From a virus, in the IMG/VR virus record IMGVR_UViG_3300034375_011810, positions 1-37,058 of that record: a DNA stretch of 37,058 nt, one strand, 5' to 3'. Numbering within the stretch: the first letter of the stretch is position 1; each line of letters starts with the position of its first letter. A program made the position numbers and the translations under genes. Positions 4,290-33,688 of this stretch are shown in pieces. The notes under the pieces were generated by a model. It was not told the origin of the DNA. It did not search any database and saw nothing but the letters and a program-made list of their open reading frames with translations.

Positions 4290-4295
4290 ACAGTT

Positions 4296-9730: not shown

Positions 9731-11217
9731 GATAAAACTCGAATTCCGTATAGTCGTTCAAACCTGTCTGCATCTGCTCTGTCGTTGACCATGGGCTCGC
9801 CTCTGATGTTTAAACTGGTATTCAATAACATCGGACAACCCGTTAACACAAACCATTTTTCTAATAACTCTCTAATACCCGTACCATCAGCAGGCACAGT
9901 TTGGACACGGCTTGAACCGTCATGGTGTATTATAGCAGGAAATTGTTCAGGATGTCTACAGTAAGCAGTAGCCTGCATATATCTACTGTTCGAAAAACCC
10001 GGCGGCATATGGAAATATTCTTGTGCTTGTTCTTCCAAAATAACTGGAGCAAATGGACGAAACTTTTGGCGGCGCTTTATTTCGTTGACCTTATCTTTGA
10101 TATCAGGTCCTCTGGGATCAGCAAGCAGACTACGATTACCCAGTGCTCTGGGTCCAAATTCTGCTCTGCCAGATGCAATGCCTACTATTTTATCTGTAGT
10201 AAGAGCATCAAGGGCACGAACGGTAGGATAATCCCCAGCGATATTGTGGCCAAGAAAAGCATTAGTCCAGCTAACACGATGACCATAGGCCAAAGCAGCG
10301 GCGCCAAGGCTACTACCAGCATCGCCAGGATTAGGCATAATCCAAATGTTTTCAAAGTACGCTCCTAAGTTTCTATTTGCAAGGCAGTTAAGTGCCACCC
10401 CACCCATGTAAACAAGATTACTGCTGAATCCAAAATCTCTTGCCTTACGCATTATATTATAAATTAAGTTTTCTGTCAAACTCTGTGCGCCTGCAGCGAT
10501 ATCGAAATCTTCAGTTCTAATCCATTCCTCACTATTTACACCTATGTGCAGATTTTCTTTAAATTCGGCTGTAGACTCATTGGCAACATATCTTGCTTTC
10601 ATAAAGTTATCCCAATGTACTCTACCGTATGCTGCCATGCCCATCATGATGTATTCTTCGTCCATGGGTTTTAGACCCACGTGTTTGGTCATGGCACTGT
10701 AAAACATACCTATGCTATGTGGGTAACGTTGACGCCAAAGTTTGCGATACTGTGCTTGACCTTTTCGATCGTATTCTGCTGCCCAAATGCTGATAGTGTC
10801 CCATTCACCTATAGCATCAATAACTACAACGGTTGCCTTGTTATAAGGTGATGTTTGAAATCCTGCAGCCGCATGGCTAAGATGATGATTGTAAGTATGT
10901 GTCTTTATTTTCTGTAAGCCGCGTATACTACTATGCTTGTTTAAATATCCACCAACTGTTAATGTTGTGGTGTCAAATGCTAAATCGTATTGTCCACTGT
11001 AGATTTGTCTAATCTTTTTAAGCCATGGACGTTCATAATATGCCAAACAGTCTGGTTGCCCATAACCGAGTGCTTCACATAGAATTTGATCATTGATATG
11101 TTCATCGTGCTTCTTTTTACTATAGCGTTCACTGTGTGCGGCAAACTTAATTTCACCGTCATCAATCACAGTAACGCCACTGTCATGAAACCCAGCCGAG
11201 ATTCCTAATAGCTTCAT
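9727..11217 (-). CDS. Carbamoyltransferase (NodU/CmcH/TobZ family)
   Basis: About 496 residues from the ATG at 11217 (MKLLGISAGFHDSGVTVI); a start at 11235 would add six residues. The N-terminal ASKHA-type domain has YNHHLSHAAAGF, VVVIDAIGEWDT, MGMAAYG and GGVALNC. The C-terminal domain has GRAEFGPRALGNRSLLADPR, KFRPFAPVI and NTSLNIRGEPMV, all diagnostic. These enzymes use carbamoyl phosphate and ATP to carbamoylate hydroxyl groups on sugars, antibiotics or, in some phages, a modified cytosine base. The neighbours (SGNH-like and glycosyltransferase-like proteins) favour a sugar target. No dCMP hydroxymethylase is in the window, so a DNA-base target is possible but unsupported here. It overlaps the upstream SGNH-like gene by 35 nt. 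Confidence 0.93.
   Translation of the reverse strand: MKLLGISAGFHDSGVTVIDDGEIKFAAHSERYSKKKHDEHINDQILCEALGYGQPDCLAYYERPWLKKIRQIYSGQYDLAFDTTTLTVGGYLNKHSSIRGLQKIKTHTYNHHLSHAAAGFQTSPYNKATVVVIDAIGEWDTISIWAAEYDRKGQAQYRKLWRQRYPHSIGMFYSAMTKHVGLKPMDEEYIMMGMAAYGRVHWDNFMKARYVANESTAEFKENLHIGVNSEEWIRTEDFDIAAGAQSLTENLIYNIMRKARDFGFSSNLVYMGGVALNCLANRNLGAYFENIWIMPNPGDAGSSLGAAALAYGHRVSWTNAFLGHNIAGDYPTVRALDALTTDKIVGIASGRAEFGPRALGNRSLLADPRGPDIKDKVNEIKRRQKFRPFAPVILEEQAQEYFHMPPGFSNSRYMQATAYCRHPEQFPAIIHHDGSSRVQTVPADGTGIRELLEKWFVLTGCPMLLNTSLNIRGEPMVNDRADADRFERLYGIRVLS
10451..10479 (-). promoter_or_regulatory. Consensus sigma70 promoter inside the carbamoyltransferase gene
   Basis: On the minus strand TTGACA (10479-10474), a 17-nt spacer and TATAAT (10456-10451) are both perfect. 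It lies inside codons for SLTENLIYNIM, and would start RNA near 10444, giving a transcript of the 3' half of the carbamoyltransferase, dCMP deaminase and the last glycosyltransferase-like gene. It could let dCMP deaminase be made separately. It may be a chance result of codon choice, although an exact match at ideal spacing is rare. Confidence 0.45.
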
Positions 11218-11920
11218 GTACGTGTGCTGCCACAATTATGTGTCCAGGTTCTAAAAAGTGTCCGTTAGGGCCTTTGGGACTGTTTTCTGGGACCCATTCC
11301 ATCATTCCACCGACTCCCCAATCAATAAAAAATTTTTTATCTATCTTTTTATCATAATCATCAAAAGTTGCATATGCAATATCAGAATTACCACCATTAT
11401 CTGGATCAGTTAAAAAATCTGTTTTTGTTTTATAATAGTCATTTTGCATTATATTAAGCATAAGACATTTTAAACCATAATTCTTTGCAAGAGTTTGAAC
11501 TATAATAATTTGTTGTAAAAATTTTTCATAGAATGACGAGTCATTGTGGTAAAGAGAAACATACTTTGTTAACTGATGTCTATGACTATAAACAGGATCC
11601 ATCCAAATCCTGCCTGACCTAGCAGGCCATACATCAAAAAAGCCTTCTTGGTCATGGAATTCTGTTCTTCCAGGAATACTCCAACCGATAATAATTAATT
11701 GTTTACTCAACTGGACAGAATTGTGTAACGGTATTTTATCGGAAGATAATACTCTTATAAATTTTCTTACTATCTGATCATTGCTGCCTCCAGGTGTCGC
11801 AAAATTTTGCACAGTAGCATCACATCTTCTTGCTACAATATAAGGCCAGGCACTTTTGTTATCGGACAGTTCTTCGCCGTAGGTAAAACTATCCCCAAAT
11901 GTAAGAATATTTCTTATCAT
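11183..11920 (-). CDS. SGNH/GDSL-hydrolase-like protein, copy 1
   Basis: A 245-residue protein. FGDSFTYGEEL gives the nucleophile Ser11 in a GDS block. A Gly-rich NFATPGGSNDQI segment follows, then IIIGWSIPGRTEF at 76-88 as a third block. Near the C-terminus PNGHFLEPGH places His residues where the Asp/His dyad is expected, with Glu in place of Asp. The superfamily hydrolyses or transfers acyl groups, for example acetyl groups on sugars. No signal peptide is seen, so it probably acts in the cytoplasm. GWSxPGR is shared with two more proteins in this window. It overlaps the carbamoyltransferase start. Confidence 0.8.
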   Translation of the reverse strand: MIRNILTFGDSFTYGEELSDNKSAWPYIVARRCDATVQNFATPGGSNDQIVRKFIRVLSSDKIPLHNSVQLSKQLIIIGWSIPGRTEFHDQEGFFDVWPARSGRIWMDPVYSHRHQLTKYVSLYHNDSSFYEKFLQQIIIVQTLAKNYGLKCLMLNIMQNDYYKTKTDFLTDPDNGGNSDIAYATFDDYDKKIDKKFFIDWGVGGMMEWVPENSPKGPNGHFLEPGHIIVAAHVHEAIRNLGWVS

Positions 11921-12026: not shown

Positions 12027-12765
12027 AGAATTTGTCTTTCATTAATCCAGCAGCATCTCTGTGAGCTGCTTCTAAAGGATGAGTATCTCCTATAGGGTAT
12101 TTATTGTGAGTTGCCCACTCGTAAAAGCCTTTATTACCAGGGAAGAAAAACCATTTACTAAAATCGATATTTTCATAATATGCGTTAATGGTCAGATCGT
12201 TTGACAAAATTGTTGAGTTATTTAAAAAAGATGCGTCGGCACAGGTAAACAAGTAAGGTATTTTTTTGCTTTGTAGAAAACTTTGTAAAAATAATATTTC
12301 TTTAATGGTAGCATAAGTCTCCCAATATTCTGAGGAAGCAACATATTGAAAATAATTTACAGCAAAATCATACACATTGTTAAGTTTGGCCTTGTTTACA
12401 TGGTCAGATATTAATTTTTTGTGTTCATTATTTTTTGAATAAAACTTATTTCCAATGGTCCAATGATTTATAACTTGCCAATTTGGTATTTTACTATCAA
12501 AACCGAAATTAAATTCATAACGGCCTGGAAAAGTCCAAGAAACAATAACAAAAATTTTGCTATTGCCTTGTACTTGCAAAAAATTTATTACCTGTCTTGA
12601 AATAGAATCATTTCCATTACCAGGATAGGCTGCACAAATATATTGATGTCCGTGAGATAACAATGCTGTAAAAGTATTTTTACTGTATCCGTCTGGGCCA
12701 CCGTGCGGACTATCTGCTAGTTCGCTGCCCCATATGAAACTATCACCGCCTGCTACTATAATCAT
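11998..12765 (-). CDS. SGNH/GDSL-hydrolase-like protein, copy 2
   Basis: A 255-residue protein. GGDSFIWGSEL at 6-16 carries the nucleophile Ser9, AYPGNGNDSISRQ is the Gly/Asn block, VIVSWTFPGRYEF the third block, and GDTHPLEAAHRDAA near the C-terminus a full DxxH-like Asp-His pair. It is the most intact of the three SGNH-like proteins here. The likely role is esterase or acyltransferase on a sugar; the substrate is unknown. The middle (about 90-160) is Asn/Lys/Tyr-rich. It overlaps the upstream unknown gene by 23 nt and contains the start of the 33-residue ORF in its 3' end. Confidence 0.8.
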   Translation of the reverse strand: MIIVAGGDSFIWGSELADSPHGGPDGYSKNTFTALLSHGHQYICAAYPGNGNDSISRQVINFLQVQGNSKIFVIVSWTFPGRYEFNFGFDSKIPNWQVINHWTIGNKFYSKNNEHKKLISDHVNKAKLNNVYDFAVNYFQYVASSEYWETYATIKEILFLQSFLQSKKIPYLFTCADASFLNNSTILSNDLTINAYYENIDFSKWFFFPGNKGFYEWATHNKYPIGDTHPLEAAHRDAAGLMKDKFYEMVKKHLE

Positions 12766-13822
12766 AACCTGGTTTCATCATATCTATTTGCATTTGATTA
12801 TAACTAAGATCTGACCAACAGTAATCAAATGTTTGTTCTACGTCATTAACGACGATTTTATAAATGTCTAAATGATTACCGAGTATATCCCATATATCGT
12901 TATAATCTGTAGATCCAAAACTTTGTTTTAAATTTACTTGTGCGATAGGCAAATATCCTAAACTTAGTTTTGGGTCATCAGGATCTCGGTTATTATCTGT
13001 TAACCATTTTTTAAAGTTGTCTTGTTCTTGATTGTGCCACAATTGTTCGCCTCCATAAACTACATTGTTACCCCATTCAACATCAAACTCACCGCTATAA
13101 TACTTTAACTCGGTGATTGCTTCACAAACAGTATCTGTAAGTTCAGGTGCATGCTCATCTCTGAAAACTTCAAACAGTGTTTTACCTATCTGTGTCCAGT
13201 GCATGTATACTCCGCCTAACACTCTATCATAACCATTCACTAAAAACAATTCTCTATGTATGTCTTTAAGATCGTACCTGGGTGCTTGTAACCATGTAGT
13301 AATTTGACTAGGCCTGACCCAATAAGGAACGGTATTGAATTTTCGCTGGCTTAAAATCAATGTTTCCATTTCGTGACAAATATTGTTTAACTGTCTAATT
13401 GCATATTTTGTTTCATAGTCTGCACGTTTATAATAATCACTTAAATTCCAGACAGTTCCTTGCAATACTTCGAAATGATTGTGTAACCGATTCATCATGT
13501 CATGATTTATACCGTTTTCGGCATAATCGTATCCAACAACATTATCTGGCGTAAAAAACTCTTCAATTTGATAAGATGGAAAGTGCTTATTAATAGTTTT
13601 ACAATGTTGATTTAACTCGTTACAAAGATAATCCAAGGTCCTTGCAGTTTTAGGAAAACCCATAAAACAAAAATTTTTTTCTAATAAAAGATTTTTATGT
13701 AGCAATTCTTTTAATGCTGGAATCCAATCTTGTGCTAATGCATTGTCGAACACTTCTATAGTGTAGTCAACTTGATCTTGATAATTTAACGGATTGCGTA
13801 ATACTACTTTAACAGTCTTCAA
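12743..13822 (-). CDS. Conserved unknown protein of the radical SAM/SGNH cluster
   Basis: A 359-residue protein with no family I can name with a function. It opens MKTVKVVLRNPLNYQDQVDY and ends MMKPGYDYSS. It is mostly helical, with His/Glu-rich helices (HDMMNRLHNHFE; LNNICHEMETLI) that could bind metal, and many Trp/Tyr (VYMHWTQIGKTLFEVFRDEH). No signal peptide or membrane segment is seen. Its genes overlap on both sides (23 nt with the SGNH-like gene, 14 nt with a radical SAM gene), so it is translationally tied to them. It could be a partner or substrate-handling protein for that enzyme set; this is inference from position only. Confidence 0.75.
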   Translation of the reverse strand: MKTVKVVLRNPLNYQDQVDYTIEVFDNALAQDWIPALKELLHKNLLLEKNFCFMGFPKTARTLDYLCNELNQHCKTINKHFPSYQIEEFFTPDNVVGYDYAENGINHDMMNRLHNHFEVLQGTVWNLSDYYKRADYETKYAIRQLNNICHEMETLILSQRKFNTVPYWVRPSQITTWLQAPRYDLKDIHRELFLVNGYDRVLGGVYMHWTQIGKTLFEVFRDEHAPELTDTVCEAITELKYYSGEFDVEWGNNVVYGGEQLWHNQEQDNFKKWLTDNNRDPDDPKLSLGYLPIAQVNLKQSFGSTDYNDIWDILGNHLDIYKIVVNDVEQTFDYCWSDLSYNQMQIDMMKPGYDYSSRR

Positions 13823-15104
13823 TTGTCATCCACCATTTGAGCGCTTCAGGACGTAGACTGATAATGTCAGTAAACGTTGTTTTTTGATCTCTTATTTGCT
13901 CTAACCTTAGTATGCGGTGCTTGCCACGACTAATACCCTCACGATATTCATCAGGCCATTGCTCTTGAAAAGTTGGTCTAGTTTTAAGTTGGATTAATGT
14001 GTCCCGCAAGGCGCCTCTAACTTGGGGTACTAGTTCGTCTATCCAAGGATGTAATATGTCCTTGGGCAGTGCTAACGGCGACATCACTATGTCGGGACTA
14101 AAACTAAACACAACTTTTGACAGCACATCAACACCTAACTTGTCTGCCAGTTGTTGAATATTTACTATTTCAAACAGGCCTGGCAGTGTTAATGTGAAGT
14201 CTAATCTCATTTGCCTTTTGTGACGTTGGATTTCAACTCCTGCACGAAAGTTTTCAAGCCATTGGTTATAGTTAAGACCTGTTCTAATATATTCTCCAAT
14301 GACTCCAGTTCCGTCGATGCTCGCGCAGATCTGCCAATCGCGAATCCTAGGAAGAATATCACTAAACAGATCAACATTCCGGTAGCGGCGCCGGCTAAGA
14401 TTAGTATTATATCTGGCATATAGTTTGTCACCATCCCCTAACTCTATTATTCTCTGCATATAACGCCAGTGCTGTTCATACATCAAAGGCTCTCCACCCA
14501 CCCAGTAGACTTCTTCTACTCTGTGTTCCTCAACTGCCTGACTAAATTCTTGTTCGATTTTGGTATCTTGAAACTGCTCAATCTGCTGCTTGACTTCAGG
14601 TCGCATCCAATTATTCTTTGGATTGGTGTAGTCGATCATGTTATGTTGGCGTTGCTCACTTTCCCAAGCACTGCTTAACATGTCCCCACACATACGACAC
14701 TTGAAGTTACAGAGATTGCTAAACCTATAGTCCCAACTAACAGGCTTCATTGTGGTATAACCTGATTCGTCGGTTGTGTCCAGTATGTCGTTGTACTTAT
14801 TGCCAAAAAGGTTGTTGAAATAACTGCGGTAAACGTCTGTGTTTAACAGCTTGTCGTTACAGACTTCGCACTCGGGCAGTGTTTCTCCTGCCATCATACG
14901 ACGACGCACACTACGCATATGTTCGCCGTTCCAGTGTTCCTCTAGTGTAATAGGAATGTATTCGCCAGTGCCAGATTCGGTATCTATGTATTGTTGAAAG
15001 TTTTGTGCAGGCTCTCTACTAGCACAACACATTCTGCGTTCAGTCTGCGGACTCAAATAAGTATGCGTCCAAGGTGCCAGGCACAGTGTATCGGGTTTAG
15101 TCAT
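13809..15104 (-). CDS. Twitch-domain radical SAM protein (1)
   Basis: A 431-residue protein. The radical SAM cluster motif is CNFKCRMC with Cys132, 136 and 139, and the SAM-binding GGEP lies at 203-206. An extra N-terminal cysteine set (C8, C26-C27, C79, C82) comes before the radical SAM core. This is the layout of N-terminal twitch radical SAM proteins, which probably hold an auxiliary Fe-S cluster there. These enzymes cleave SAM to a 5'-deoxyadenosyl radical; the substrate is unknown. Odd: codons for RRRYR near position 14390 use CGG/CGC, unlike the AGA/CGT elsewhere, where a second ORF overlaps (14207-14434). It overlaps genes on both sides. Confidence 0.9.
   Translation of the reverse strand: MTKPDTLCLAPWTHTYLSPQTERRMCCASREPAQNFQQYIDTESGTGEYIPITLEEHWNGEHMRSVRRRMMAGETLPECEVCNDKLLNTDVYRSYFNNLFGNKYNDILDTTDESGYTTMKPVSWDYRFSNLCNFKCRMCGDMLSSAWESEQRQHNMIDYTNPKNNWMRPEVKQQIEQFQDTKIEQEFSQAVEEHRVEEVYWVGGEPLMYEQHWRYMQRIIELGDGDKLYARYNTNLSRRRYRNVDLFSDILPRIRDWQICASIDGTGVIGEYIRTGLNYNQWLENFRAGVEIQRHKRQMRLDFTLTLPGLFEIVNIQQLADKLGVDVLSKVVFSFSPDIVMSPLALPKDILHPWIDELVPQVRGALRDTLIQLKTRPTFQEQWPDEYREGISRGKHRILRLEQIRDQKTTFTDIISLRPEALKWWMTIEDC
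14207..14434 (-). CDS. Possible overprinted membrane-anchored coiled-coil protein
   Basis: A 75-codon frame lies wholly inside the radical SAM gene, on the same strand in the +1 frame. It predicts one transmembrane helix (about 8-33, ILAGAATGMLICLVIFFLG), a basic turn (GRSARAS) and a regular amphipathic helix (about 41-69, LESLENILEQVLTI...). ATG 14434 has AGAG 7 nt upstream; a second ATG is at 14419. In its favour are the protein-like design and the unusual CGG/CGC arginine codons in the host frame. Against it, T-rich third codon positions make +1 shadow frames hydrophobic by default. Confidence 0.3.
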   Translation of the reverse strand: MVTNYMPDIILILAGAATGMLICLVIFFLGFAIGRSARASTELESLENILEQVLTITNGLKTFVQELKSNVTKGK

Positions 15105-16311
15105 ATCCCATTGTTGCTGCCATTTCAGGATACAGCAGTCGAAAGTCCTGTTTTCTATATTGATCGGTTTTGGTCATTTTACGCACGAATTCGGTGCCGT
15201 CACTGCCTGGACCGTTTTCAATGAACCTGATCACATTATCAATTTCACGTTGATAAAAATCTCTGCCCCAGAACATGCTTTTTAATTTGTTTAATACAAG
15301 TTCTTTTGACTCCGGGGTCATATATTGAATACTCATATGACTTGGACTAGTTAATAGATTAAAATATATAGTATCAAAAGGTTTTGTATCAGCCCAATCT
15401 AATAATTCGTCTAAGTAGTAAACATTTTGTATGTTAACAGTAAAACAAAGTTGTGTGGTAATATTAGGTGTATCTGCACTTCTAGCAAAGTGAACATCGT
15501 CAATAATTTTGTTTGCTTTTGTCCAGTCCGCACCATAACGTTCATATTCAAAACGCTCACCTACATTATCTACACTAAACGCAATGTCCACACGACCAAA
15601 CTCACTCCATATCTGTGTGTGCGGGCCCAGTTCCTGTGTGGCATTGGTGTTGTAATGTATATCAATATTTTTACTATACCCATTGTCTGCGGCATACTTT
15701 AACAAATCCCAGTGTTCTTGAATAAGCCACGGTTCGCCTCCCGTAAATTCGAAGTATTTTATTTGTGGCAAAAGTTTTTTTAGATTCTGCCAGAATAAGT
15801 CAGACTTTCTAGGCCACATTCCTTGTTGAAGAAAAGTATAAGCCAAATGTTCTTTAGGGTTTTTTAAACCTTTTACGTATTTTATTTCTTCCTCTGCCCA
15901 CTTACTACTTGACCAACTTCCACATATTCGACATTTTAAATTACAAATATTCCCTAATTTTAAATCTAAAAACCATAACTGATCGGGTTGTAAGTTACTC
16001 CAATCAACGTTGGCATACAACTCTTTTAGCCTTGTCCTGGTGTGCATACGCTTACTAGTTGCCCCAGCTGCTTCCGCATCCCAACATCTGAAACAGGCCT
16101 TAGGTTTTCCTCCGTTTAAAAAATCTTGTCGTAGATTTTGAAGATATTCTGATTTATAAATTTCCTGCAGACTTGCATCTTTTAACCAAAATTTGTTACC
16201 TTCCTTGTCTACTATCTCTTCGTCGAACAAACAGCATGGTCTAGAAGTACCTTGAGGTGTTGCTTCTAAACTAGTCCACGGTAACATACATATGGAATCA
16301 GGCAAGTTCAT
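15097..16311 (-). CDS. Twitch-domain radical SAM protein (2)
   Basis: A 404-residue protein. The N-terminal auxiliary cysteines are C8 (ICMLPW), C26-C27 (RPCC), C73 and C76 (ACFRC). The radical SAM motif CNLKCRIC gives Cys123, 127 and 130. FTGGEPW at 189-195 is the SAM-amino-group motif, and a strand with IHYNTNATQE follows. The C-terminal third (RFIENGPGSDGTEF...) has no extra cysteine cluster, unlike SPASM proteins with a C-terminal twitch. The substrate is unknown. It overlaps radical SAM (1) by 8 nt and the cobalamin-type radical SAM gene by ATGA, so these are very likely co-translated. Confidence 0.9.
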   Translation of the reverse strand: MNLPDSICMLPWTSLEATPQGTSRPCCLFDEEIVDKEGNKFWLKDASLQEIYKSEYLQNLRQDFLNGGKPKACFRCWDAEAAGATSKRMHTRTRLKELYANVDWSNLQPDQLWFLDLKLGNICNLKCRICGSWSSSKWAEEEIKYVKGLKNPKEHLAYTFLQQGMWPRKSDLFWQNLKKLLPQIKYFEFTGGEPWLIQEHWDLLKYAADNGYSKNIDIHYNTNATQELGPHTQIWSEFGRVDIAFSVDNVGERFEYERYGADWTKANKIIDDVHFARSADTPNITTQLCFTVNIQNVYYLDELLDWADTKPFDTIYFNLLTSPSHMSIQYMTPESKELVLNKLKSMFWGRDFYQREIDNVIRFIENGPGSDGTEFVRKMTKTDQYRKQDFRLLYPEMAATMGYD

Positions 16312-18065
16312 AGTATTAGTTCTCTTAATTCTAGATATGCAGAATTATCAAACTGTATATCATCGTTGGTATTTTTATGAGTAGCAAGAATTTTTTCTAA
16401 ATAGTTTGTAGCGTTAAGGTGTTCTGCTATCATAGTTTGTATATCAGGAGGCATCAAAACTTCGTCGCCCAACAAATTATAATTGTCAGCGTAAGTGACA
16501 ATTTTTTCTTCTTTGCCAAAATATTCTTCAATGTCCTGCTTATGCAGTTTCATTGCATCAATTAGTTGGTTTAATTCTGGGGTATTTCGACTCATTGGTA
16601 ATCTTAGTACTGTTGCTACTTCTTGCAGTATTAATCTACGTCTAATTCTTTCTTTGAAAGTCAACGTTGAATTAGTATTTAAAGACCAAAGTATGTCACT
16701 GCCTTTTTTTATCGATAAACCTATGTCCTCTTGCATATTCCACAATGGAGTATGCTGATGATGGGTATATGGTATTCCCAGTGTAATTTTGTAAACTGTG
16801 CCGCTTGCACAATATTTTTGATATCGTATAAACATTTTAACAGTGTCTATAAAATCTTGATACGTCTCAGTTGGATAACAACTAAAGAACAAAAGCACAC
16901 AAACAATGCCATGTTTATCAAATTGCTCTAATTCTGCGTCTATGTCAACAGTTTTGAACTGTTTTTTCATGTGCGCTCGTACTGCATCGCTGCCACTCTC
17001 CACCCCGATTGTAAGACCTTCTCCTCCGCTAGCCTTTAATAAAGCATAGTATTCTTCATTTAATTCTTTACTAATCGGTCTTGTAATATATTGCCCGACC
17101 CATTTTAATCTTGCTTCTTGATTTTTTAAGTTATAGTCAGCCAAAGTTTTAATAAAGTCTTTAAATGCTTTCATACTGCCGTTTACAAGGCTGTCGCTCA
17201 TATAAAACTTTTGGACATTGTGCTTTTTATACAAGTGAATCATTTCCTGTGCAATATGTTCTCCTGAACGATATTTAAACTTTGGCCAAAGTACCGGAAT
17301 ATCACAAAACGTACATTTTCTTACACAACCTTTGCTACCAGTAATAGGTATCGTGGGCTCGTTGACATAATTGTAATCATCGAGTTTATAGTCGTCGAAA
17401 TCCACAAAAGGTAATGTTTCTAAATTAATCTTGTTTATGTCCCCATGATGACTTTCAAATTGAGATCCAGACAACAAGTCTATTATTGCTTGCTCCCCAT
17501 CTCCTTGTATTAAACTATCAATGAGATTGTAGTGTAAAAGGGCTTCTCCAAACACTGCAGATTTATATGATCCAAAGTATTTTTTACTTTTTGAGATAAA
17601 TGCAAAGTGATTTGGACCCAAGGGGTAGCTGGACGCACCTCTTCCTCCTAAAACAATCTTTATTTTAGGCAATCTTTTTTTAACTTGCTCACACAATACC
17701 AGGGCGGACTTGTGACTTTTATAACTAAAAACACTTATCCCCAACCAAGTTGGATTTAATTTAGCAATTTCTTCTATACTAATATCAATCCATTTTCTTA
17801 TTTTATCTTTGCTAGAAGTAAAAAATAAGTCTACGATATCTTGATAATTTTCATCAATGTCTTTGCTTACATTTTCAAATTGATATTGCGTTGTATAAAA
17901 TTCTTGTTCGTCGCTGCTTAATTTTTTTAAAAGTAAGTTTAAGTCTAAGGTTCGTGCAGAATACCCTGCTGCTTTTGCACATGCTTTTATAATTGCAGGA
18001 CTACTTGGAGGATATTGTAAATCAAGTACCGGTACACTAACAATTAATATATCAAGTTTCTTCAT
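16308..18065 (-). CDS. Cobalamin-type (B12-binding-like) radical SAM protein
   Basis: About 585 residues from ATG 18065 (MKKLDILIVSVPVLDLQYPP); an ATG at 18077 would add four. The first ~200 residues look like the Rossmann-type B12-binding domain (LGISVFSYKS, KIVLGGRGAS, GDGEQAI), but no clear DxHxxG cobalamin ligand is seen. The radical SAM motif is GSKGCVRKCTFCDIP, with Cys247, 251 and 254. LTIGVESGSDAVRAHMKK follows, as in this class. The family includes methyltransferases at unactivated carbons and ring-changing enzymes. It is the only member of this class in a cluster of twitch radical SAM proteins. It overlaps the membrane-protein gene by 14 nt at the 5' end. Confidence 0.87.
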   Translation of the reverse strand: MKKLDILIVSVPVLDLQYPPSSPAIIKACAKAAGYSARTLDLNLLLKKLSSDEQEFYTTQYQFENVSKDIDENYQDIVDLFFTSSKDKIRKWIDISIEEIAKLNPTWLGISVFSYKSHKSALVLCEQVKKRLPKIKIVLGGRGASSYPLGPNHFAFISKSKKYFGSYKSAVFGEALLHYNLIDSLIQGDGEQAIIDLLSGSQFESHHGDINKINLETLPFVDFDDYKLDDYNYVNEPTIPITGSKGCVRKCTFCDIPVLWPKFKYRSGEHIAQEMIHLYKKHNVQKFYMSDSLVNGSMKAFKDFIKTLADYNLKNQEARLKWVGQYITRPISKELNEEYYALLKASGGEGLTIGVESGSDAVRAHMKKQFKTVDIDAELEQFDKHGIVCVLLFFSCYPTETYQDFIDTVKMFIRYQKYCASGTVYKITLGIPYTHHQHTPLWNMQEDIGLSIKKGSDILWSLNTNSTLTFKERIRRRLILQEVATVLRLPMSRNTPELNQLIDAMKLHKQDIEEYFGKEEKIVTYADNYNLLGDEVLMPPDIQTMIAEHLNATNYLEKILATHKNTNDDIQFDNSAYLELRELIL

Positions 18066-18480
18066 CTTCCTCTTCATCTGGTAACAACCATGCCCAGATT
18101 ATAAACACAAATATACCAACTCCAAGGATCCAAGGCCAATAAGCAACTATGAACGCCCATGTTGCTAACAGCATCTCATAAATTAAAAGTATGAAGAACA
18201 TTAATGCAAGTACTAATATTGCTCCTACCATTTCTGTAAATGTCATAGTAGATGTTTCCTTATTATTATTGTTATTGGAAACAGAACCAACACTTGAGTT
18301 ATTTCTATTTTCCCAGTCGTCTGTGCGACCCTTCCACAATACACGCAACACTTCCATACCGTACATTGCTTCCGCAGTTTCTCGGGCCTCTTGGTCACTC
18401 AGACAATCGTGTATGTAGACTGTTTTATTTAAGCCACCGTCTCTACGTAATAACACTTCATATGTATAAAATCTACTCAT
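18052..18480 (-). CDS. Small two-helix membrane protein
   Basis: A 142-residue protein. The soluble N-terminal ~50 residues (MSRFYTYEVLLRRDGGLNKT...) form an alpha/beta unit with an EARETAEAMYGMEVLRV helix. Then comes a low-complexity Ser/Asn run (SVSNNNNNKE), and two transmembrane helices at about 84-104 and 106-131, ending in an acidic tail (PDEEEDEET). The Asn run is encoded by repeated AAT/AAC codons. The fold suggests a cytoplasmic sensor or adaptor domain held at the membrane. Position between radical SAM genes is the only functional hint. It overlaps the next gene upstream by ATGA. Confidence 0.78.
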   Translation of the reverse strand: MSRFYTYEVLLRRDGGLNKTVYIHDCLSDQEARETAEAMYGMEVLRVLWKGRTDDWENRNNSSVGSVSNNNNNKETSTMTFTEMVGAILVLALMFFILLIYEMLLATWAFIVAYWPWILGVGIFVFIIWAWLLPDEEEDEET

Positions 18481-19784
18481 GGGCGTAATTTCTCAAACTC
18501 TGGGAATGTATCCCAAAAACTTTCGTTTCTAATTTTGTCTAATTTCTCGGTTTCTAACAAAAATCTATCCCAAGTATCGCTAGCATCATTTGCTTTCATC
18601 ATATTTAAAATACTCTGGTAACCTGTTGTGGCCCGTTTATACTCGTCTAATGGTTCTAGCCAAGCAAGATGTTCTTCATAAGCAGGATAGATAACTTCTT
18701 CTTTGAACCAAGTTGGGAAAATATCTACCCTGTACCAGTCTGGACTCAGACAATTATTGACATTAAAATCTTGTGCTCTAATTAATCCTTTTTCAACCCA
18801 TGCACGATGAAATTTTAGTACATGTAAAACATTCATTACGGTAATAGTTGCACTAGCAAAAAAGTCTACGTGCGGCACTTCATTCCTCATCTGTAACCTA
18901 TTTTTCTCTACCTCTTCCCAAACTGTTCCTTTTCTTAGAAGCTCTGCCTGTTTGCCCATGCCATCTAAACTGGCTCCAACACTTACGTTTTTAAAATGCT
19001 TCCAGTAGTCAAACACATGCTTGTCTTTATATCTTAACTCACTGAAATTTGTATTATAAATTATTCTTGTGTCAGTTTTTCCTAACTCCATCAATCTATC
19101 TAAGATGTAATAATGTTCTTTCATTATTAAAGGTTCGCCACCAGCAAAATAAACTTGTTCAAGATAGGGTACATGAGGCTCCATCTGAGCAATCATATCA
19201 TCCTCGTTGCCAGTTGTATACTCAACCCGAGCCATATCTCTTCCAAGTACATCTGGAATTCTGTTGTAAAGTTTTACGTGATCGTTCCACCAATTACTAC
19301 TAAAGATCGGCCCACAACTACGGCAACGAAAATTACACAAATTACTAAAACGTACATCCCAGTATCTAATCTTGAATTCAGGATGACTACCATCAACTCC
19401 TGTTCGATCTACTTCACTAATTAAATGACCGTAATTTCTATTTGCATCGTTACGCATACTAAATGCACCATTGCGTTCATTTTCATAACATTTTTTACAT
19501 TCTTTACAGGTCTTATCGTTCAACATATTGATCCGTATTTGTCGATAAGGTTCTTGATTCCATACTTCTTCCATAGTATGTTTGCGTAAATCTCCAACTG
19601 GCGCCCAATATTCAGCAAAACAACAAGGGTAAGTTCTACCATCTGGATAGGCATGCATGTGCATCCATGGTAGCATACAAAATGTTTCACTTTTTACAAG
19701 TCTGTCCCATTGTTTTTCAGTTAAATCTTCTTTCCTAATGTGATAAGGTGCGCGGTCATTGTAATTGGGTTGAATTTTTTTCAT
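18477..19784 (-). CDS. Twitch-domain radical SAM protein (3)
   Basis: A 435-residue protein with a ~30-residue basic N-terminal extension before the twitch segment. Auxiliary cysteines are C36 (FCMLPW), C54-C55 (YPCCFAE) and C93, C96, C99 (CKECKKC), one more than in the others. The radical SAM motif CNFRCRSC gives Cys150, 154 and 157. AGGEPLI at 214-220 and IIYNTNFSEL follow. It resembles radical SAM (1) in the RFSNLCNF[K/R]CR stretch. The substrate is unknown. ATGA overlaps on both sides link it to the membrane protein and to radical SAM (4). Confidence 0.9.
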   Translation of the reverse strand: MKKIQPNYNDRAPYHIRKEDLTEKQWDRLVKSETFCMLPWMHMHAYPDGRTYPCCFAEYWAPVGDLRKHTMEEVWNQEPYRQIRINMLNDKTCKECKKCYENERNGAFSMRNDANRNYGHLISEVDRTGVDGSHPEFKIRYWDVRFSNLCNFRCRSCGPIFSSNWWNDHVKLYNRIPDVLGRDMARVEYTTGNEDDMIAQMEPHVPYLEQVYFAGGEPLIMKEHYYILDRLMELGKTDTRIIYNTNFSELRYKDKHVFDYWKHFKNVSVGASLDGMGKQAELLRKGTVWEEVEKNRLQMRNEVPHVDFFASATITVMNVLHVLKFHRAWVEKGLIRAQDFNVNNCLSPDWYRVDIFPTWFKEEVIYPAYEEHLAWLEPLDEYKRATTGYQSILNMMKANDASDTWDRFLLETEKLDKIRNESFWDTFPEFEKLRP

Positions 19785-21118
19785 AATGTATTATACCAAG
19801 TTTTCAACGCAGGAAATGCGGTGATTAAGTCTTTGTTTCTACGCACGTCATACTGTGAATAAAACTGTTTAAAATCGTTGTGTAGTTTGGGCATTTCAAA
19901 TGCTTCTCTATGCGGAGTCTTAACTATGTCTAAATAATCTATTAGTCGTTGCACATGATTGCGTTCGTGCTCGTGCATAAAGACATGATACTGATAAATG
20001 TTTAACCAGCGTTCCAGTTGTTCTTTATACCGCATTCTAATATCGTCGGGCAACACCAATGCACTTTGAAAACTGGGGAACCGTAAAATGTTTAGTGTAA
20101 AGTTTGGATAGTCTCTGCCGTAACGGCTTTTTGTTTCCATTATCCAAGTTAGGAAATCTGGCAGTGAGTCAAGACACAATGCGTTAATGGTACACATTAC
20201 ATGTAAGCCTCTTAACTTTTTGCTTTTGGCTAACTTGTGCATGTTGTCCTGCCATGCTGCAAAGTCTAAACCGTCACGGATGTACTCTGCTTGTACGCCC
20301 ATTGATTCATTGCTGGTATACAAATCAACTTCTAATCCATCAATGCTGTCAAGTAGCCTATCTAAATCTACCTGTGCGCCGAGGTTACTGTTTATAGCAA
20401 GACGTGTCTGACTCTTACCTCTGTTGTTTTTAAACCAATCCAGCAAACGCCAAGTTTCGCCCGACATTAAAGGTTCACCGCCTGTTATTCTAAGTTCTTC
20501 CAGCGTTCTATGTAGGTCTGACTCCCACCATTGGTAGAAGGCTTCCACATACGGATTAGTATCACCAAAGCGGTATAGTTGGCTACTATCATGAGTATGA
20601 GTAAAATGATTCCTACCATCCGAGATGAGATTGGTGTACCCGCCATGTTTTTTAATATCATTAACCCAAGTACTACTGAAAGCAGGATTACAGTAACTAC
20701 AAGCAAACTGGCAAGTCCTGTCGAAGGCAATCTCCAAAGTCTTGAGATCAACGTCTTGACTAAAGGGTGTTCTAAAAGCCGCATCGAGTTCCTCTTCTGT
20801 ATATATCTTTGTTTTATACACACGGTCGCTGACAGCATCTCTGCCCATGTCTTCTATTTTCCAGCAATACTCGCAGCCATCCGGACGTTCTCCCTGCTGC
20901 ATCATTTCACGTTCCATTTTTTTACGTTCGGTATTATGTAATGCTTTGGGATTTTGTTCTACTTCTGCTATTCCCACTTTATGTGGAAGTGGATGATGAC
21001 AACTGGTAGTCATGCCTGAACCCAACCATATGGTAGCGTTATACCATTTGGCCGCACAGAAACTTGTAGACTTTATATCTATAACTCTCTGTTTGTATTC
21101 TAAATCAGTTTCTTTCAT
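19781..21118 (-). CDS. Twitch-domain radical SAM protein (4), CHHP subtype
   Basis: A 445-residue protein. The auxiliary set is C21 (FCAAKW), C40 in TSCHHP, and C82/C85 (CEYCW). It thus has SCHHP where the other subtype has a CC pair. The radical SAM motif CQFACSYC gives Cys136, 140 and 143; ITGGEPLM lies at 211-218. It shares with radical SAM (5) the segments NPxALHNTExKK and ERPxxCxYCW, and both put the radical SAM cysteines at exactly 136/140/143, so the two are close paralogs. The His residues might be alternative cluster ligands. The preceding start is 1 nt from the end of a glycosyltransferase-like gene. Confidence 0.9.
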   Translation of the reverse strand: MKETDLEYKQRVIDIKSTSFCAAKWYNATIWLGSGMTTSCHHPLPHKVGIAEVEQNPKALHNTERKKMEREMMQQGERPDGCEYCWKIEDMGRDAVSDRVYKTKIYTEEELDAAFRTPFSQDVDLKTLEIAFDRTCQFACSYCNPAFSSTWVNDIKKHGGYTNLISDGRNHFTHTHDSSQLYRFGDTNPYVEAFYQWWESDLHRTLEELRITGGEPLMSGETWRLLDWFKNNRGKSQTRLAINSNLGAQVDLDRLLDSIDGLEVDLYTSNESMGVQAEYIRDGLDFAAWQDNMHKLAKSKKLRGLHVMCTINALCLDSLPDFLTWIMETKSRYGRDYPNFTLNILRFPSFQSALVLPDDIRMRYKEQLERWLNIYQYHVFMHEHERNHVQRLIDYLDIVKTPHREAFEMPKLHNDFKQFYSQYDVRRNKDLITAFPALKTWYNTL

Positions 21119-22195
21119 TTAATGATATGCCTTTACCCGATTTAAAAAATTTACTACATCTTTGTTTAGATTTTTAAAATAATTTTCGGCTTTTTCTAAT
21201 AACAAGTCTTTGTTATATCTAACAATTGCTTCGGTTTCTGTTAAAAACTGATTCAAATCAGAGTTTACTAGTTCTTTAATGACTTCTGCAATTCTGTTAA
21301 ATCTGTCTTGGTGATTGTCTATACTATCAAATGATTCGTCAATTAGATTATTGAAGGTTTTGAAACCCTCATTGTGCAAAAATTTATAAAAATTTTTATT
21401 AGCGACAACTACAAATGGGTGGCCCATTAGCAATGGCTTTGTGATTTTTTCAGTAAAAAACTGCTCTTGATGTTCATAATTAGTTTCAGTTACAACCGAA
21501 AAATAACTTTGTAAGTAAAGTAAAGGATTTATTTTTACTTTGTCGCTGCCGTCGCTTTGACGAGTTTGCGCTTTATGAAAGGCATCATTCATTTCGTCGG
21601 CCAAATACATGCCCTTATACACTTGTGACCATACTGCATTGTCTAAACTCTTATTTTCTTTTAATTTATCTACTATATAACTTCTATGATAACGATATTT
21701 CATATTGAGAAGATTAAAAGAATACTTTTTATTTCTTGCATTAATTACCTCCTCCGAATACTGTGAGCAGCAAGATAAATTCCAATCATATGTAGTATAA
21801 GAATAAAACAAATGATTTAAAAGTAAAAAATCTTTAAAATTTTGACTATTAAAAGAAGCACAAGAAACTATTACAAAATTCTTCAAGACGTTTTCTTTAA
21901 ATATCTGTAAATGTCTTTTAAACAGCGTTGTTCCTTCTGCAGGTTCAAAATAAATGATATAGCCACCATTATTTGTATGACTCTCGATTATTTTTTTTAA
22001 AATTTTATTTTTCTGTATAGATTCTGGATCAACAACTAAAAAATCTGTAACTTGCAATGGCTCCCAGTAATTTACCGCCGAGTTCAACCTATTAATATAA
22101 AAATTTGATAAATTTAGTTCATTTTCAAAAGTCATAAAAAAATCTAAATTATGTTTTGACAAAAATACTTTCAAAAAGATAGATTCATTTTGCAT
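21119..22195 (-). CDS. Glycosyltransferase-like protein
   Basis: A 358-residue protein rich in Asn, Lys and Phe. Two segments suggest a GT-B-type phage glycosyltransferase. LLNMKYRYHRSYIVDKLKE (about 162-180) resembles the NxRxRxHR...LL motif of such proteins. SVVTET...QFFTEKITKPLLMGHPFVVVANK (233-267) resembles the donor-binding C-terminal part seen in fucosyltransferase-like enzymes (TEKxxKPxxxGxPF). The N-terminal half is not recognisable. It sits between two closely related radical SAM genes, overlapping the upstream one by 11 nt. Donor sugar and acceptor are unknown. Confidence 0.68.
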   Translation of the reverse strand: MQNESIFLKVFLSKHNLDFFMTFENELNLSNFYINRLNSAVNYWEPLQVTDFLVVDPESIQKNKILKKIIESHTNNGGYIIYFEPAEGTTLFKRHLQIFKENVLKNFVIVSCASFNSQNFKDFLLLNHLFYSYTTYDWNLSCCSQYSEEVINARNKKYSFNLLNMKYRYHRSYIVDKLKENKSLDNAVWSQVYKGMYLADEMNDAFHKAQTRQSDGSDKVKINPLLYLQSYFSVVTETNYEHQEQFFTEKITKPLLMGHPFVVVANKNFYKFLHNEGFKTFNNLIDESFDSIDNHQDRFNRIAEVIKELVNSDLNQFLTETEAIVRYNKDLLLEKAENYFKNLNKDVVNFLNRVKAYH

Positions 22196-23573
22196 AATGT
22201 TTACAAGTTGTCCAAAATTCCGTCATCTCTGGAAAAGTTGTCAAAAAGTCTGTACCTCTGCGACGATCATGTTCTGAGAAGAATCGATAAAAGTTTGCCT
22301 GTTGCATTTTAACATATTCAGGATCTAATTTGCAACCTTCCCGCATATAATCGATTACTCGTTGCAGTCTGTGAAGTTCATAATCTTTGAATCCATGTAG
22401 TTTATTTTCCTTATTTTCATTTATGTTTTTCATCATAAATGCCCAAGGTTCTTCCAAGTAGTCCACATATAACTCTGGCAAAATCTGTATGTTTTGCCAA
22501 GCAGGCTGACGCAGTATAGGAGTATCAAACCAAACACGCTGATAGTCTTTGTTGTAGATCATTCTCAACCCGTATATGGCATTCATAATTTCATGAAACC
22601 CTGTTATGTTCAGGGTATTCATAGTAATGATGAATGTCAAACTGCTACGTGTAGGAACTTCATTGAGAAATCTATTTACGTTTTCCCAAACTCGTTCAAA
22701 GTTCATGCCATGTCTGCCATATTCTGCACGTTCAAACATACAGTCAAGACTAACGTATTGCATGAAGTGCTCCAAATACCTTGGCTCGTTTGTAGTCAAC
22801 TGTTTAACATAATCCAAATATTTTTCAAACAAATTATCTTCAACACTAAAGTTGCTGGTCACGTTTATGTGTAAGCGAGGACTGGGATTGGCCAGCACAT
22901 AGTCAAACACACGATAAGTGTTTCGATCCATTAAAGGTTCGCCACCAGTCATTCTAAAATGTTCCAGTTCAGGATACAGTTCGGGCCACCACTGCCAAAA
23001 TGCATCTACATAGGGATTTTGTTCCCTTGCTGGTATAGGTCTATTGCGTCCCGTAAAGTGTTCAGGTGCATTGTGCAAAGGCACTGTTGGAAAAGCACCA
23101 TGCCGTTGAATTTCCTCATCCCATGTACTACTAAACTGAGGACTGCAATAACTGCACTTAAGATTACAAGCGTGATTAAAATTTACTTCAACGTAGGAAG
23201 GGAGAACATCCTCATGGCCTGTTGACTCTAAGATACTGTGGTAATCTTTTGCGGCCCAAGGCTCGCCGCTGCGATAGTGCCTGTCGCTTAAATTGCCCAA
23301 GTCTTCCTGTGTCCAGCAGTAACTGCACTCGCTTGGACGTTCTTCTCGAAGCATGATCTGACGTTGCTGTTTTTTATGTTCGGTATTGTGCAGTGCGCTG
23401 GGATTGTGTTGAACTTGTGCTGCGTCAATTTGGTGTAGTGGAGGATGATAGCAACTGTTGTTTAGGCCTGTAGGTAAATGCAGACTAACTTGTTTCCATT
23501 TAGCCAAACAAAGACTGGGCCCTAACAAGTCCCGCATATTTTCTGCTCCTGTTAAAAATACGCTCTTATTCAT
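22185..23573 (-). CDS. Twitch-domain radical SAM protein (5), CYHP subtype
   Basis: A 462-residue protein, close relative of radical SAM (4). The auxiliary cysteines are C22 (LCLAKW), C41 in NSCYHPP, and C83/C86 (CSYCW). The radical SAM motif CNLKCSYC gives Cys136, 140 and 143; MTGGEPLM lies at 208-215. NPSALHNTEHKK at about 57-68 matches NPKALHNTERKK of its paralog. The C-terminal part (FRxLQRVIDYMREG...) also matches the paralog's. The substrate is unknown, but two near-copies within 4 kb suggest two related sites or substrates. It overlaps the neighbours by 11 and 8 nt. Confidence 0.9.
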   Translation of the reverse strand: MNKSVFLTGAENMRDLLGPSLCLAKWKQVSLHLPTGLNNSCYHPPLHQIDAAQVQHNPSALHNTEHKKQQRQIMLREERPSECSYCWTQEDLGNLSDRHYRSGEPWAAKDYHSILESTGHEDVLPSYVEVNFNHACNLKCSYCSPQFSSTWDEEIQRHGAFPTVPLHNAPEHFTGRNRPIPAREQNPYVDAFWQWWPELYPELEHFRMTGGEPLMDRNTYRVFDYVLANPSPRLHINVTSNFSVEDNLFEKYLDYVKQLTTNEPRYLEHFMQYVSLDCMFERAEYGRHGMNFERVWENVNRFLNEVPTRSSLTFIITMNTLNITGFHEIMNAIYGLRMIYNKDYQRVWFDTPILRQPAWQNIQILPELYVDYLEEPWAFMMKNINENKENKLHGFKDYELHRLQRVIDYMREGCKLDPEYVKMQQANFYRFFSEHDRRRGTDFLTTFPEMTEFWTTCKHYAK

Positions 23574-24657
23574 ATTCGTTATTTCTTAGTGTATTATCGA
23601 TTGCATATTGTTTAAAAGGCAATAAATCAAAAAGATTTTCATTGCGTAACTTGTCTAATAATAAAATATGTCTTAGTGTTGTAGTGAATAAAAATTCATT
23701 ATCAACATTGTCTAATTTGTAAATTAATTCGTTATATTTTGAATTTTTAATATGGTCTTTTATTTTGTTCAGTTTTTCTTTAGCCAACGGTTTTAAATCT
23801 TTAGGTATTGCAGAAATGTCTAAATAATCCGGCCCGTATAACGGTATTAAATCAACTTGAAGGTTTTTTGCAATAGTAAATTTAAGCAAGTCTGGCAGAA
23901 ACCAAATATTTAATAAACTCACAACAGGAGATAATGTCACAGTTAAATTTTTTAAATTTTTATTTTGTATTGTTTCCAAATTATTGTTTATAGTAGTCCA
24001 CGATGCACCAGATCGAATATGTTCGAGTTCTGTACCAATTGCATCAATGCTAACAGTTATATGAACTTTTTTAAAATTTTTCCATAACTTAAAAAAGTCA
24101 TTATTTTTATATCCCAACACGGTTAAATTTGTATTATAACGCAATACAATGTTTTTACTATAACCCATGTCGATTAATTTAGTTATAACATTAAAATGGT
24201 CAGCAGATATAAATGGTTCCCCACCAGTAAAATACAAGTCAATTAAATCTTCTGTTAATATTGTATCTAATAGATGAGTTATTTCTGTCTGTTTGATTGC
24301 AGGAAATATTGATAATTCTTTAGCCCATTGGTTACTAAAATGAGGGCCACAGTACCTACATTTTATGTTACATTGATTTGTATTACGGATATCTAAGAAT
24401 TTAATTTGCTTAGTAGCACCTATGCCTGAATCGTAATACGGTCTGATACTTTCCCAGCCATTAATTTCTTTGCTCCAACAAGCGCGACAAGCTTCAGGCT
24501 TGTCTTCATTTTTGATGTCTTGGAATCTATTAGGGTTAGTTATTTCACTAATAGGCTTACTATAATCAGCAGAAACCAAACAACAAGGCCGTATTTTTGC
24601 ATCAGGAAAAATAGTAACACCACTATCAATAGCACCACATTGCCAAGTCATTACCAA
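23566..24657 (-). CDS. Twitch-domain radical SAM protein (6), short form
   Basis: A 363-residue protein, the shortest of the six. The N-terminal cysteines are C7 (TWQCGAID), C25-C26 (RPCCLVS), C57 and C60 (ACRACW). The radical SAM motif CNIKCRYC gives Cys96, 100 and 103; FTGGEPF lies at 143-149, then VLRYNTNLTVL. The linker between the twitch segment and the core is shorter than in the others. The coding sequence is unusually AT-rich with many Lys/Asn codons, like the neighbouring glycosyltransferase gene at 21119. ATG 24657 or 24651 are both possible starts. The substrate is unknown. Confidence 0.88.
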   Translation of the reverse strand: MVMTWQCGAIDSGVTIFPDAKIRPCCLVSADYSKPISEITNPNRFQDIKNEDKPEACRACWSKEINGWESIRPYYDSGIGATKQIKFLDIRNTNQCNIKCRYCGPHFSNQWAKELSIFPAIKQTEITHLLDTILTEDLIDLYFTGGEPFISADHFNVITKLIDMGYSKNIVLRYNTNLTVLGYKNNDFFKLWKNFKKVHITVSIDAIGTELEHIRSGASWTTINNNLETIQNKNLKNLTVTLSPVVSLLNIWFLPDLLKFTIAKNLQVDLIPLYGPDYLDISAIPKDLKPLAKEKLNKIKDHIKNSKYNELIYKLDNVDNEFLFTTTLRHILLLDKLRNENLFDLLPFKQYAIDNTLRNNEYE

Positions 24658-25568
24658 CCTTCCTGTTTACGGATTATGTCCATTTCAGTTACAGTTGTTC
24701 CTAAATTATGTTGACTCTGTCGATAATGATGCTTAAAAAAACGGCTTTGGTCTGCATCAAGTTCTGCAATGGGTAAGCCTAGTTTTTGTTTTAGTATGTC
24801 TGCCAGTCTCACGCTGGCATCATCTGTGTCTTGGCCAAAACTCTGCCATAACTTTTTCAAATAGTTAAAATCTTGAACTTGTCTGTAATCCCATTCTTTA
24901 CACATTGTAAGATATGTGCCTAGTCTTGCACCATATATTGCCCACCAACCGTTTTCCACATCTCTGCCTACAGTTTGCCAGATGCAAAGATGATCGTAGT
25001 TACGTTGATGCACACGTTGTTCAAATTCTTGCAGTGTAGGTTTTGCGCCTCGGTCTAAACACATTTTTACGCCTTCTCTAAATCCTGCACGCCATGCTTG
25101 ATAGGGACTACCGTTAGGGTAGGTTGTGCTATAGCAGTCGTGCATTGCTTGATACTTAGGGTCAAAACAGAATTCTACACAAGTATCATCACTGCCATCA
25201 CTGTGTTCGTGTGTTTGCATCAACTCTACAAACTGCTTAGTCCAACAACTAATTCCCCCGTTGCCATACTGTAAGCCATTTATTTCATTACGTGCTTTCC
25301 AACGAAATACATGATCCTGATTGCGTTCTGTTAATCGCAATTGTAAATTAAAAAAATTTGGATCAGGGATGTTATCTCCATCTATTAGCACAAACCTTTC
25401 TGTTTCGCTTGCACGAGCAGCGGCTTTGTGTGCTGCATCACTACCGTGTACTCCGTCCACTCGTTTTGCCCAAGGCACCATGTTTTGGATCTTAATCCAA
25501 AACTCTTCTTTCTTGGGTTCATCGTAACTTAAATAGATGCAGTCTAAGTCTGCGATATCAACTAACAT
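24651..25568 (-). CDS. Glycosyltransferase-like protein with IDGDN motif
   Basis: A 305-residue protein, GT-A-like. LDCIYLSYDEPKKEEF at 8-23 is a typical first strand and helix, and FVLIDGDNIPDPNFF around 63-65 gives the DxD-type metal site. After it come RWKARNEINGLQYGNGG and SPYQAWRAGFREGVKM. The C-terminal half is helical and Trp/Tyr-rich. The whole protein aligns by eye with the last third of the 607-residue protein at 7477-9300, but here the DGD is intact. It probably transfers a sugar from a nucleotide sugar; donor and acceptor are unknown. It overlaps the SGNH-like gene upstream by 11 nt. Confidence 0.75.
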   Translation of the reverse strand: MLVDIADLDCIYLSYDEPKKEEFWIKIQNMVPWAKRVDGVHGSDAAHKAAARASETERFVLIDGDNIPDPNFFNLQLRLTERNQDHVFRWKARNEINGLQYGNGGISCWTKQFVELMQTHEHSDGSDDTCVEFCFDPKYQAMHDCYSTTYPNGSPYQAWRAGFREGVKMCLDRGAKPTLQEFEQRVHQRNYDHLCIWQTVGRDVENGWWAIYGARLGTYLTMCKEWDYRQVQDFNYLKKLWQSFGQDTDDASVRLADILKQKLGLPIAELDADQSRFFKHHYRQSQHNLGTTVTEMDIIRKQEGW

Positions 25569-26286: not shown

Positions 26287-26659
26287 ACTGTTCTACGTCT
26301 TGATAAGTTTCATTTTCATTGATGGCTAGTGCGGCATTGTTTTTAACTACATATTGACCACTGTCTGCTTTTTCTAAAAGTGCTTGAACGTGGTTAGCTC
26401 TTGGTGGTTGATATAGCGCACCATCTTTAACTATTTTGTTGCCTAGATTTCTATATTCTTCAAGGGAAACTGTTATATAAGGACCAATTGGTAAAGGATT
26501 CCCGTCTGCTCGGTCAAGCCTGACAGGTTGACCAGAAACAACTGTTCCATCTTCTTCATAGTAAATTCTATATTCGTATACTGGCTCAGTACTTTGATTG
26601 TTTTTTTCTAATTGTTCTACTTCAGCCCAAAATTTTGCCGCATCTTGTTCTATACTCAT
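26267..26659 (-). CDS. Conserved hypothetical phage protein
   Basis: A 130-residue acidic protein. A helical N-terminus (MSIEQDAAKFWAEVEQLEK) is followed by PVYEYRIYYEEDGTVVSG, a beta-hairpin-like segment that I associate with uncharacterised marine phage proteins, then GPYITVSLEEYRNLGNKIVKDG. No enzymatic motif is visible. It overlaps the upstream glycosyltransferase-like gene by 38 nt. The function is unknown; small accessory proteins of this kind may regulate or chaperone neighbours, but nothing in the sequence shows that. Confidence 0.72.
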   Translation of the reverse strand: MSIEQDAAKFWAEVEQLEKNNQSTEPVYEYRIYYEEDGTVVSGQPVRLDRADGNPLPIGPYITVSLEEYRNLGNKIVKDGALYQPPRANHVQALLEKADSGQYVVKNNAALAINENETYQDVEQYGKKSD

Positions 26660-29583: not shown

Positions 29584-29595
29584 GTTCTAATCCTT

Positions 29596-31068: not shown

Positions 31069-31088
31069 TTTTTACGTACCGTTCTTAA

Positions 31089-31096
31089 TATTTATT
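31089..31096 (-). promoter_or_regulatory. Late promoter box before the tail-fibre gene at 29596
   Basis: AATAAATA on the minus strand, 7/8 match to the T4 late consensus TATAAATA, 20 nt before the ATG at 31068, in the 33-nt gap between structural genes. T4-like late genes are read through such a single box by a phage late sigma factor. Confidence 0.55.
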
Positions 31097-31101
31097 TCCT
31101 A

Positions 31102-33655: not shown

Positions 33656-33673
33656 TTTTGTATACCGTTCATA

Positions 33674-33681: not shown

Positions 33682-33688
33682 GTGTTTT

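Follow-up and report, generated by a model that had tools for sequence, protein, structure and literature searches.

The window analysed here is the whole 37,058-base stretch (38% GC) of the virus record IMGVR_UViG_3300034375_011810, and its minus strand carries six genes for radical S-adenosylmethionine (SAM) enzymes with an N-terminal twitch domain, designated A to F. A search of the record with the NCBIfam model NF033640 (N_Twi_rSAM) points to exactly six places, the genes at 13809, 15097, 18477, 19781, 22185 and 23566. Each protein has a single match of 246-390 bits spanning nearly the whole model (1-398), above the curated cut-off of 170 bits. The NCBIfam entry provides a domain name only, with no reaction. 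In transcriptional order, with the accessory gene F first, the six genes are as follows.

23566..24657, minus strand: F, accessory CC-type twitch radical SAM protein
22185..23573, minus strand: B, CxHP-type twitch radical SAM protein, with orthologues in viral contigs (63-100% identity for the best 80 of 194 relatives) and in a clade with bacterial CYHPP/CFHPP proteins
19781..21118, minus strand: A, CxHP-type twitch radical SAM protein, with orthologues in viral contigs (67-100% identity for the best 80 of 445 relatives) and in a clade with bacterial CHHP proteins
18477..19784, minus strand: C, CC-type twitch radical SAM protein with an extra Cys99 (CKECKKC)
15097..16311, minus strand: D, CC-type twitch radical SAM protein
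13809..15104, minus strand: E, CC-type twitch radical SAM protein, the most conserved of the CC set

All six proteins display the CxxxCxxC and GGEP motifs of the radical SAM superfamily. PF04055 also matches all of them, scoring above its gathering threshold only in B and F and at the cut-off in C, while the SPASM model PF13186 is above its cut-off in C and D. Ahead of the radical SAM core, four proteins share a C...CC...CxxC pattern, namely E (C8, C26C27, C79/82), D (C8, C26C27, C73/76), C (C36, C54C55, C93/96/99, the last three lying in CKECKKC) and F (C7, C25C26, C57/60). The two others are of the CxHP type, with C21, C40-HHP and C82/85 in A and C22, C41-YHP and C83/86 in B. These two are 34% identical, share NPxALHNTExKK and place their SAM cysteines at residues 136/140/143. 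Thus, motif inspection and the NF033640 matches agree with the initial annotation, made from the sequence alone, in the coordinates of the six twitch paralogues and in their division into two cysteine-pattern subtypes. That annotation also rightly left aside the product of the gene at 16308, a B12-type radical SAM protein (PF04055 and PF02310) that is not a twitch paralogue. Both types are kept in hundreds of viral contigs and are therefore not due to chance. Two further traits proved incidental: the equal numbering of the SAM cysteines, taken as a sign of kinship, is not kept in orthologues (mostly 140 or 134 for A, 136-148 for B), and the third Cys of CKECKKC, taken as defining protein C, is present in about half of its orthologues, the others having C..CYEQ.

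Scans of viral contigs recovered the 445 relatives of A and 194 of B, the two often sharing a contig; these contigs are up to about 374 kb long. Sixty-seven viral loci extend 6.5 kb or more beyond B. In this set, which like the other locus counts includes some close relatives, B is followed by A and by C in every case (67/67 each), by D in 63 and by E in 58, some being cut by contig ends, and the commonest gene order is B-A-C-D-E; F occurs in only seven. On the other side of B, three conserved partner genes (g1, g2 and g3) are found in 74/74 loci and tail genes in 73 of these 74. The system is therefore a near-invariant five-enzyme cassette of many large, uncultured phages, B-A-C-D-E, lying downstream of tail genes and g1-g3. 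The same order of five paralogues across many samples indicates that they work jointly and are under strong selection. The suggestion that the paralogues act on different substrates is plausible, as each one forms a separately conserved orthologue group at a fixed place in the order. Among isolate phages, a megablast search with 25 kb of the window found no match and a protein search with A found nothing; B, C and E gave weak matches of 23-27% identity in Vibrio phages K566 and K567, C also matching one marine single-virus contig. The proteins matched in K566 are CC-like and their genes have unannotated genes on both sides.

The CxHP proteins group in a phage-only tree from which the N-terminal columns carrying the trait were excluded (Shimodaira-Hasegawa-like approximate likelihood ratio test, SH-aLRT, 93), and in a core-only tree with bacterial homologues the whole CxH subfamily forms a clade with 100/100 support. 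The predicted monophyly of this subtype thus holds. The lineage-specific duplication proposed along with it does not: in the radical-SAM-core columns, phage A nests among the A proteins of bacteria (100/99), as does phage B, in a separate clade, among the bacterial B proteins (98/91). When the phage A and B rows, together with two binned phage rows, are forced into one clade, the approximately unbiased (AU) test rejects this exclusive grouping by 227 log units (p 3.4e-107). With A and B each grouping with bacterial relatives of its own, and with their union in one phage clade rejected, the split between them is older than the phage lineage or took place outside it. A and B are therefore two old branches of an ancient CxH subfamily, each shared by the phages and chromosomes of the predatory-type Bdellovibrionota. 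Compared with its CC-type sisters, this subfamily has no CC pair and is recognizable by the signature CxxKW...GxxxSC[HYF][HL]...HN...K...R...CxYCW...SDR, which marks it off within NF033640. One protein of the CxH clade that looked like a CC member (locus L177, 5321-6664) is in fact a CCHHP protein and was rejected as an exception.

The bacterial side of the family is mainly found in Bdellovibrionota, to which most strong full-length bacterial matches belong among the matches listed. A genome scan detected CxHP proteins in this phylum, with strong matches in 101 of its 369 genomes. In one chromosome (locus L281), clear orthologues of A (two copies), B, C, D and E stand in a single run, flanked by rplU-rpmA-obgE on one side and by an lgt-like gene on the other. 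E-type genes occur in 14/369 Bdellovibrionota genomes, all 14 of which also have CxH genes (hypergeometric p 7e-9, a value that ignores relatedness). Around 50 bacterial CxH loci, the recurrent neighbours include a 322-residue protein (16 loci), GT4 glycosyltransferases (15), Wzt (13), Wzm (10), PqqD proteins of family PF05402 (10, at a median of 0.9 kb), DegT (9) and a small S74-domain protein (9, at 1.4 kb). The last is 144-150 residues long with a conserved, leader-like N-terminus. Contigs L161, L162, L169 and L181 from metagenome-assembled genomes, considered as host genes, were rejected as binned phage DNA on account of tail-gene homologues, and L163-L165 (50-54% identity) were also kept apart from the chromosomal set.

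Several of these bacterial loci deserve mention. A PqqD gene followed by the small S74-domain protein is seen in L179 (9364-10210), where a Halobacteriovorax CxH gene completes the trio (8001-10210), and also in L282, L288 and L314, with EFNLxxIExEVLxESxYxDVFAGSD at the N-terminus, and in L309 (5647-6447) PqqD and S74 are fused in one protein; the small S74-domain proteins after PqqD are a candidate new precursor family of ribosomally synthesized and post-translationally modified peptides (RiPPs). In L281, L284, L285, L293 and L170, the CxH genes adjoin rplU-rpmA-obgE, often together with the 322-residue protein, whose SDLDxTV motif is reminiscent of nucleotidyltransferases. In L176 (9562-10386 and 10898-11779), the distance between a B-type CxH gene and flagellin genes is about 0.2 kb.

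In the canonical twitch and SPASM arrangement, a first Cys is followed by a beta-hairpin, by the Cys of a GX4C motif and later by a CX2C pair, and BtrN fully ligates its auxiliary cluster with four Cys (PMC6231123). The CxH proteins agree with a twitch (half-SPASM) domain, having a first Cys, a GX4C Cys and a CX2C pair and, in the model of A, a hairpin between the first two. Of the seven Cys of the full SPASM motif, the CX5CX3C portion and the last Cys are absent from all six, and extra Cys beyond the twitch four are occasional and confined to orthologues of C. In the 670 N-terminal twitch proteins compared, a Gly stands at -5 from the first Cys of the CC pair in 524, and the residue after this Cys is C (349), H (167) or Y (134). 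The AlphaFold2 model of A (predicted local distance difference test score, pLDDT, 94.9) places a beta-hairpin (27-31/36-38) after C21 and before C40, with G35-x4-C40 matching the GX4C motif. This spacing and the hairpin position indicate that C40 is the canonical ligand, aligned to the first Cys of CC, so that H41 of A or Y42 of B occupies the place of the variable and dispensable second Cys. A MAFFT alignment of the six sequences that set C40 opposite this second Cys was rejected on the GX4C spacing (524/670) and the modelled hairpin. Cys21, Cys40, Cys82 and Cys85 are invariant in CxH proteins (126/126), which also keep the CxxxCxxC motif of the SAM cluster. His42 is found in 61/61 phage and 56/65 bacterial CxH proteins, the other nine having Leu and forming a subclade with all four Cys; His46 and His61 are less variable than His42. 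The different auxiliary cluster ligation that the initial annotation had considered for the CxHP pair is thus unlikely. A Cys4 site would be the simpler reading, a His near the cluster being not impossible given that PqqE, in the same superfamily, has Asp319 as a non-Cys cluster ligand (PMC5715301).

The other genes around the cassette, all on the minus strand, are listed below.

28642..36973, minus strand: tail and structural genes directly upstream of the cassette; the product at 33689 matches PHROG tail/baseplate families
27466..28287, minus strand: g3, conserved partner with a D-x-D motif, probably a glycosyltransferase; upstream of B in 74/74 loci
26622..27479, minus strand: g2, GT8/glycogenin-like glycosyltransferase (glycogenin profile match, E 2.8e-5); 74/74 loci
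24651..25568, minus strand: g1, conserved partner with a glycosyltransferase-A-like fold and a DGDN motif; 74/74 loci
21119..22195, minus strand: x, encoded between B and A in some of the loci (55 over most of its length), with no family match
16308..18077, minus strand: B12-binding-type radical SAM protein between C and D; only 5/160 loci
12743..13822, minus strand: u, conserved protein directly after E; 118/160 loci
9727..11235, minus strand: CT, NodU/TobZ-type carbamoyltransferase (PF16861/PF02543, NodU-like); 70/160 loci

Farther along, the window encodes, in addition to the NodU-type carbamoyltransferase, an aminotransferase of the DegT type and a sugar dehydratase. The model of g1 (pLDDT 89.4) has glycosyltransferases such as RmlT and WrtF as its top PDB fold matches, at a template-modelling (TM) score of about 0.3. 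PDB profile searches gave no match for g1, g3 or u, and u has no Pfam match either; it may be a part of the pathway as yet missing. Two genes of no assigned family also stand within the run, at 18052 and 21119. At 16308-18480, the B12-type radical SAM gene and a small membrane protein (six of the 160 loci) are inserted between C and D.

The most likely role of the cassette A to E would be a series of radical reactions whose substrate is a glycan or a glycosylated surface or tail protein, a reading to which we assign a probability of about 50%. In each enzyme, the SAM cluster would generate a 5'-deoxyadenosyl radical that attacks a substrate of its own, and the all-Cys, BtrN-like auxiliary cluster would have a redox or positioning role. 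A to E would then perform successive steps on a single glycan or glycosylated protein, whose product would in phages likely decorate the tail fibres or the host surface and in Bdellovibrionota might go with surface-polysaccharide export or be a peptide on a PqqD-type carrier. The glycan or glycopeptide substrate is proposed because of the bacterial GT4, Wzm/Wzt, PqqD, S74 and DegT neighbours, and the glycogenin-like g2, the glycosyltransferase-like fold of g1 and the NodU, DegT and dehydratase genes support a sugar-linked pathway. The constant order, with B and A linked to g1-g3, the tail genes and C, D and E, speaks for the same reading. Somewhat more tentatively, at a little under even odds, B-A-C-D-E could be one pathway common to phages and Bdellovibrionota that places a novel, radically modified glycan or glycopeptide on phage tails and on bacterial surfaces, with a distinct reaction for the CxH enzymes. 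Several observations weigh against the sugar-linked reading. The tie between the radical SAM enzymes and the glycosyltransferases is one of gene order alone; the fold matches of g1 are weak, and g3 and u lack profile matches. In addition, no PqqD homologue and no small S74 peptide is found across 160 viral loci, and the nucleotidyltransferase-like protein, Wzm/Wzt and the other bacterial neighbour genes are likewise absent from the viral loci searched. Because PqqD is missing there, the peptide half of the glycopeptide idea is weaker in phages.

An alternative that gives the peptide precedence would be a RiPP-type maturation, in which a ribosomal peptide, or a tail protein in its C-terminal part, would be the target of both the CxH and the CC enzymes and would then receive sugars from the glycosyltransferases, giving a glycopeptide. 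The PqqD and S74 genes beside bacterial CxH genes (10 and 9 loci), once as a PqqD-S74 fusion, favour this scheme, as do the PDB fold matches of A, headed by the peptide-acting enzymes CteB, anSME, SuiB and ChlB. However, the TM scores of these matches reach only 0.34, PqqD is near a minority of bacterial CxH genes, polysaccharide genes being equally common, and the viral loci without PqqD contain S74 only as a tail-fibre end, in three cases. Loci with the features of a RiPP cluster dependent on a RiPP recognition element (RRE) are indeed found in some Bdellovibrionota and in none of the 160 viral loci, and this scheme seems unlikely for the cassette.

The cassette might otherwise serve host metabolism during infection, as an auxiliary metabolic or cofactor pathway apart from virion or surface glycans. 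In favour of this, Nishimura et al. (2017) reported T4-like genomes from the environment that carry as many as 12 radical SAM genes together with Fe-S assembly genes, and interpreted them as an Fe-S-linked virus-host metabolism (PMC5332604). It is nevertheless improbable in view of the constant linkage to tail and glycosyltransferase-like genes and of bacterial counterparts standing beside polysaccharide export genes. Far less probable still is a recent A/B duplication within the phage lineage in which an auxiliary-cluster Cys ligand gave way to His, with a change in chemistry. Whereas the common CxHP motif and the grouping in the phage-only tree agree with it, the rejected exclusive clade, the 34% identity, the presence of both genes in one bacterial run, the retention of all four Cys and the Leu at position 42 in 9/65 bacterial homologues all speak against it.

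Among characterized enzymes, BtrN (2-deoxy-scyllo-inosamine dehydrogenase) has the same four-Cys order of Cys, hairpin, GX4C and CX2C, but the twitch domain of the window proteins precedes their radical SAM core and the sequence kinship is remote, with no BtrN match. The likeness to CteB, anSME, SuiB and PqqE lies in PF13186 and in the best fold matches of A; the window proteins differ from these SPASM enzymes in having the first four of the seven Cys only, placed in an N-terminal domain, and no second auxiliary cluster is predicted for them. PqqD/RRE-associated radical SAM clusters resemble the bacterial loci, where CxH genes often adjoin PqqD, and differ from the phage cassettes, in which no precursor was identified.

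The T4-like environmental phages are likewise large, uncultured and rich in radical SAM genes, one genome of 183 kb having 12; the accessible part of their description covers no paralogue groups, synteny, CxH subfamily or bacterial counterparts (PMC5332604). In an open literature search, neither the CxH subfamily nor the five-gene order nor the Bdellovibrionota set was the subject of any paper retrieved, which is not proof of novelty. Phage radical SAM genes are usually listed singly, whereas here five paralogues keep a constant order in many samples and on very large contigs. The chromosomal set of Bdellovibrionota offers a cellular version for study, in which the PqqD and S74 neighbours are candidate substrates.

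Two other features of the window may be added. The tail proteins at 29596-31068 and 31868-33655 have a common C-terminal ADLAE...GGE domain that resembles a self-cleaving tail-fibre end. Dihydrofolate reductase-, thymidylate synthase- and dCMP deaminase-like genes at 3782-5195 and 9293-9730 fit a large phage.

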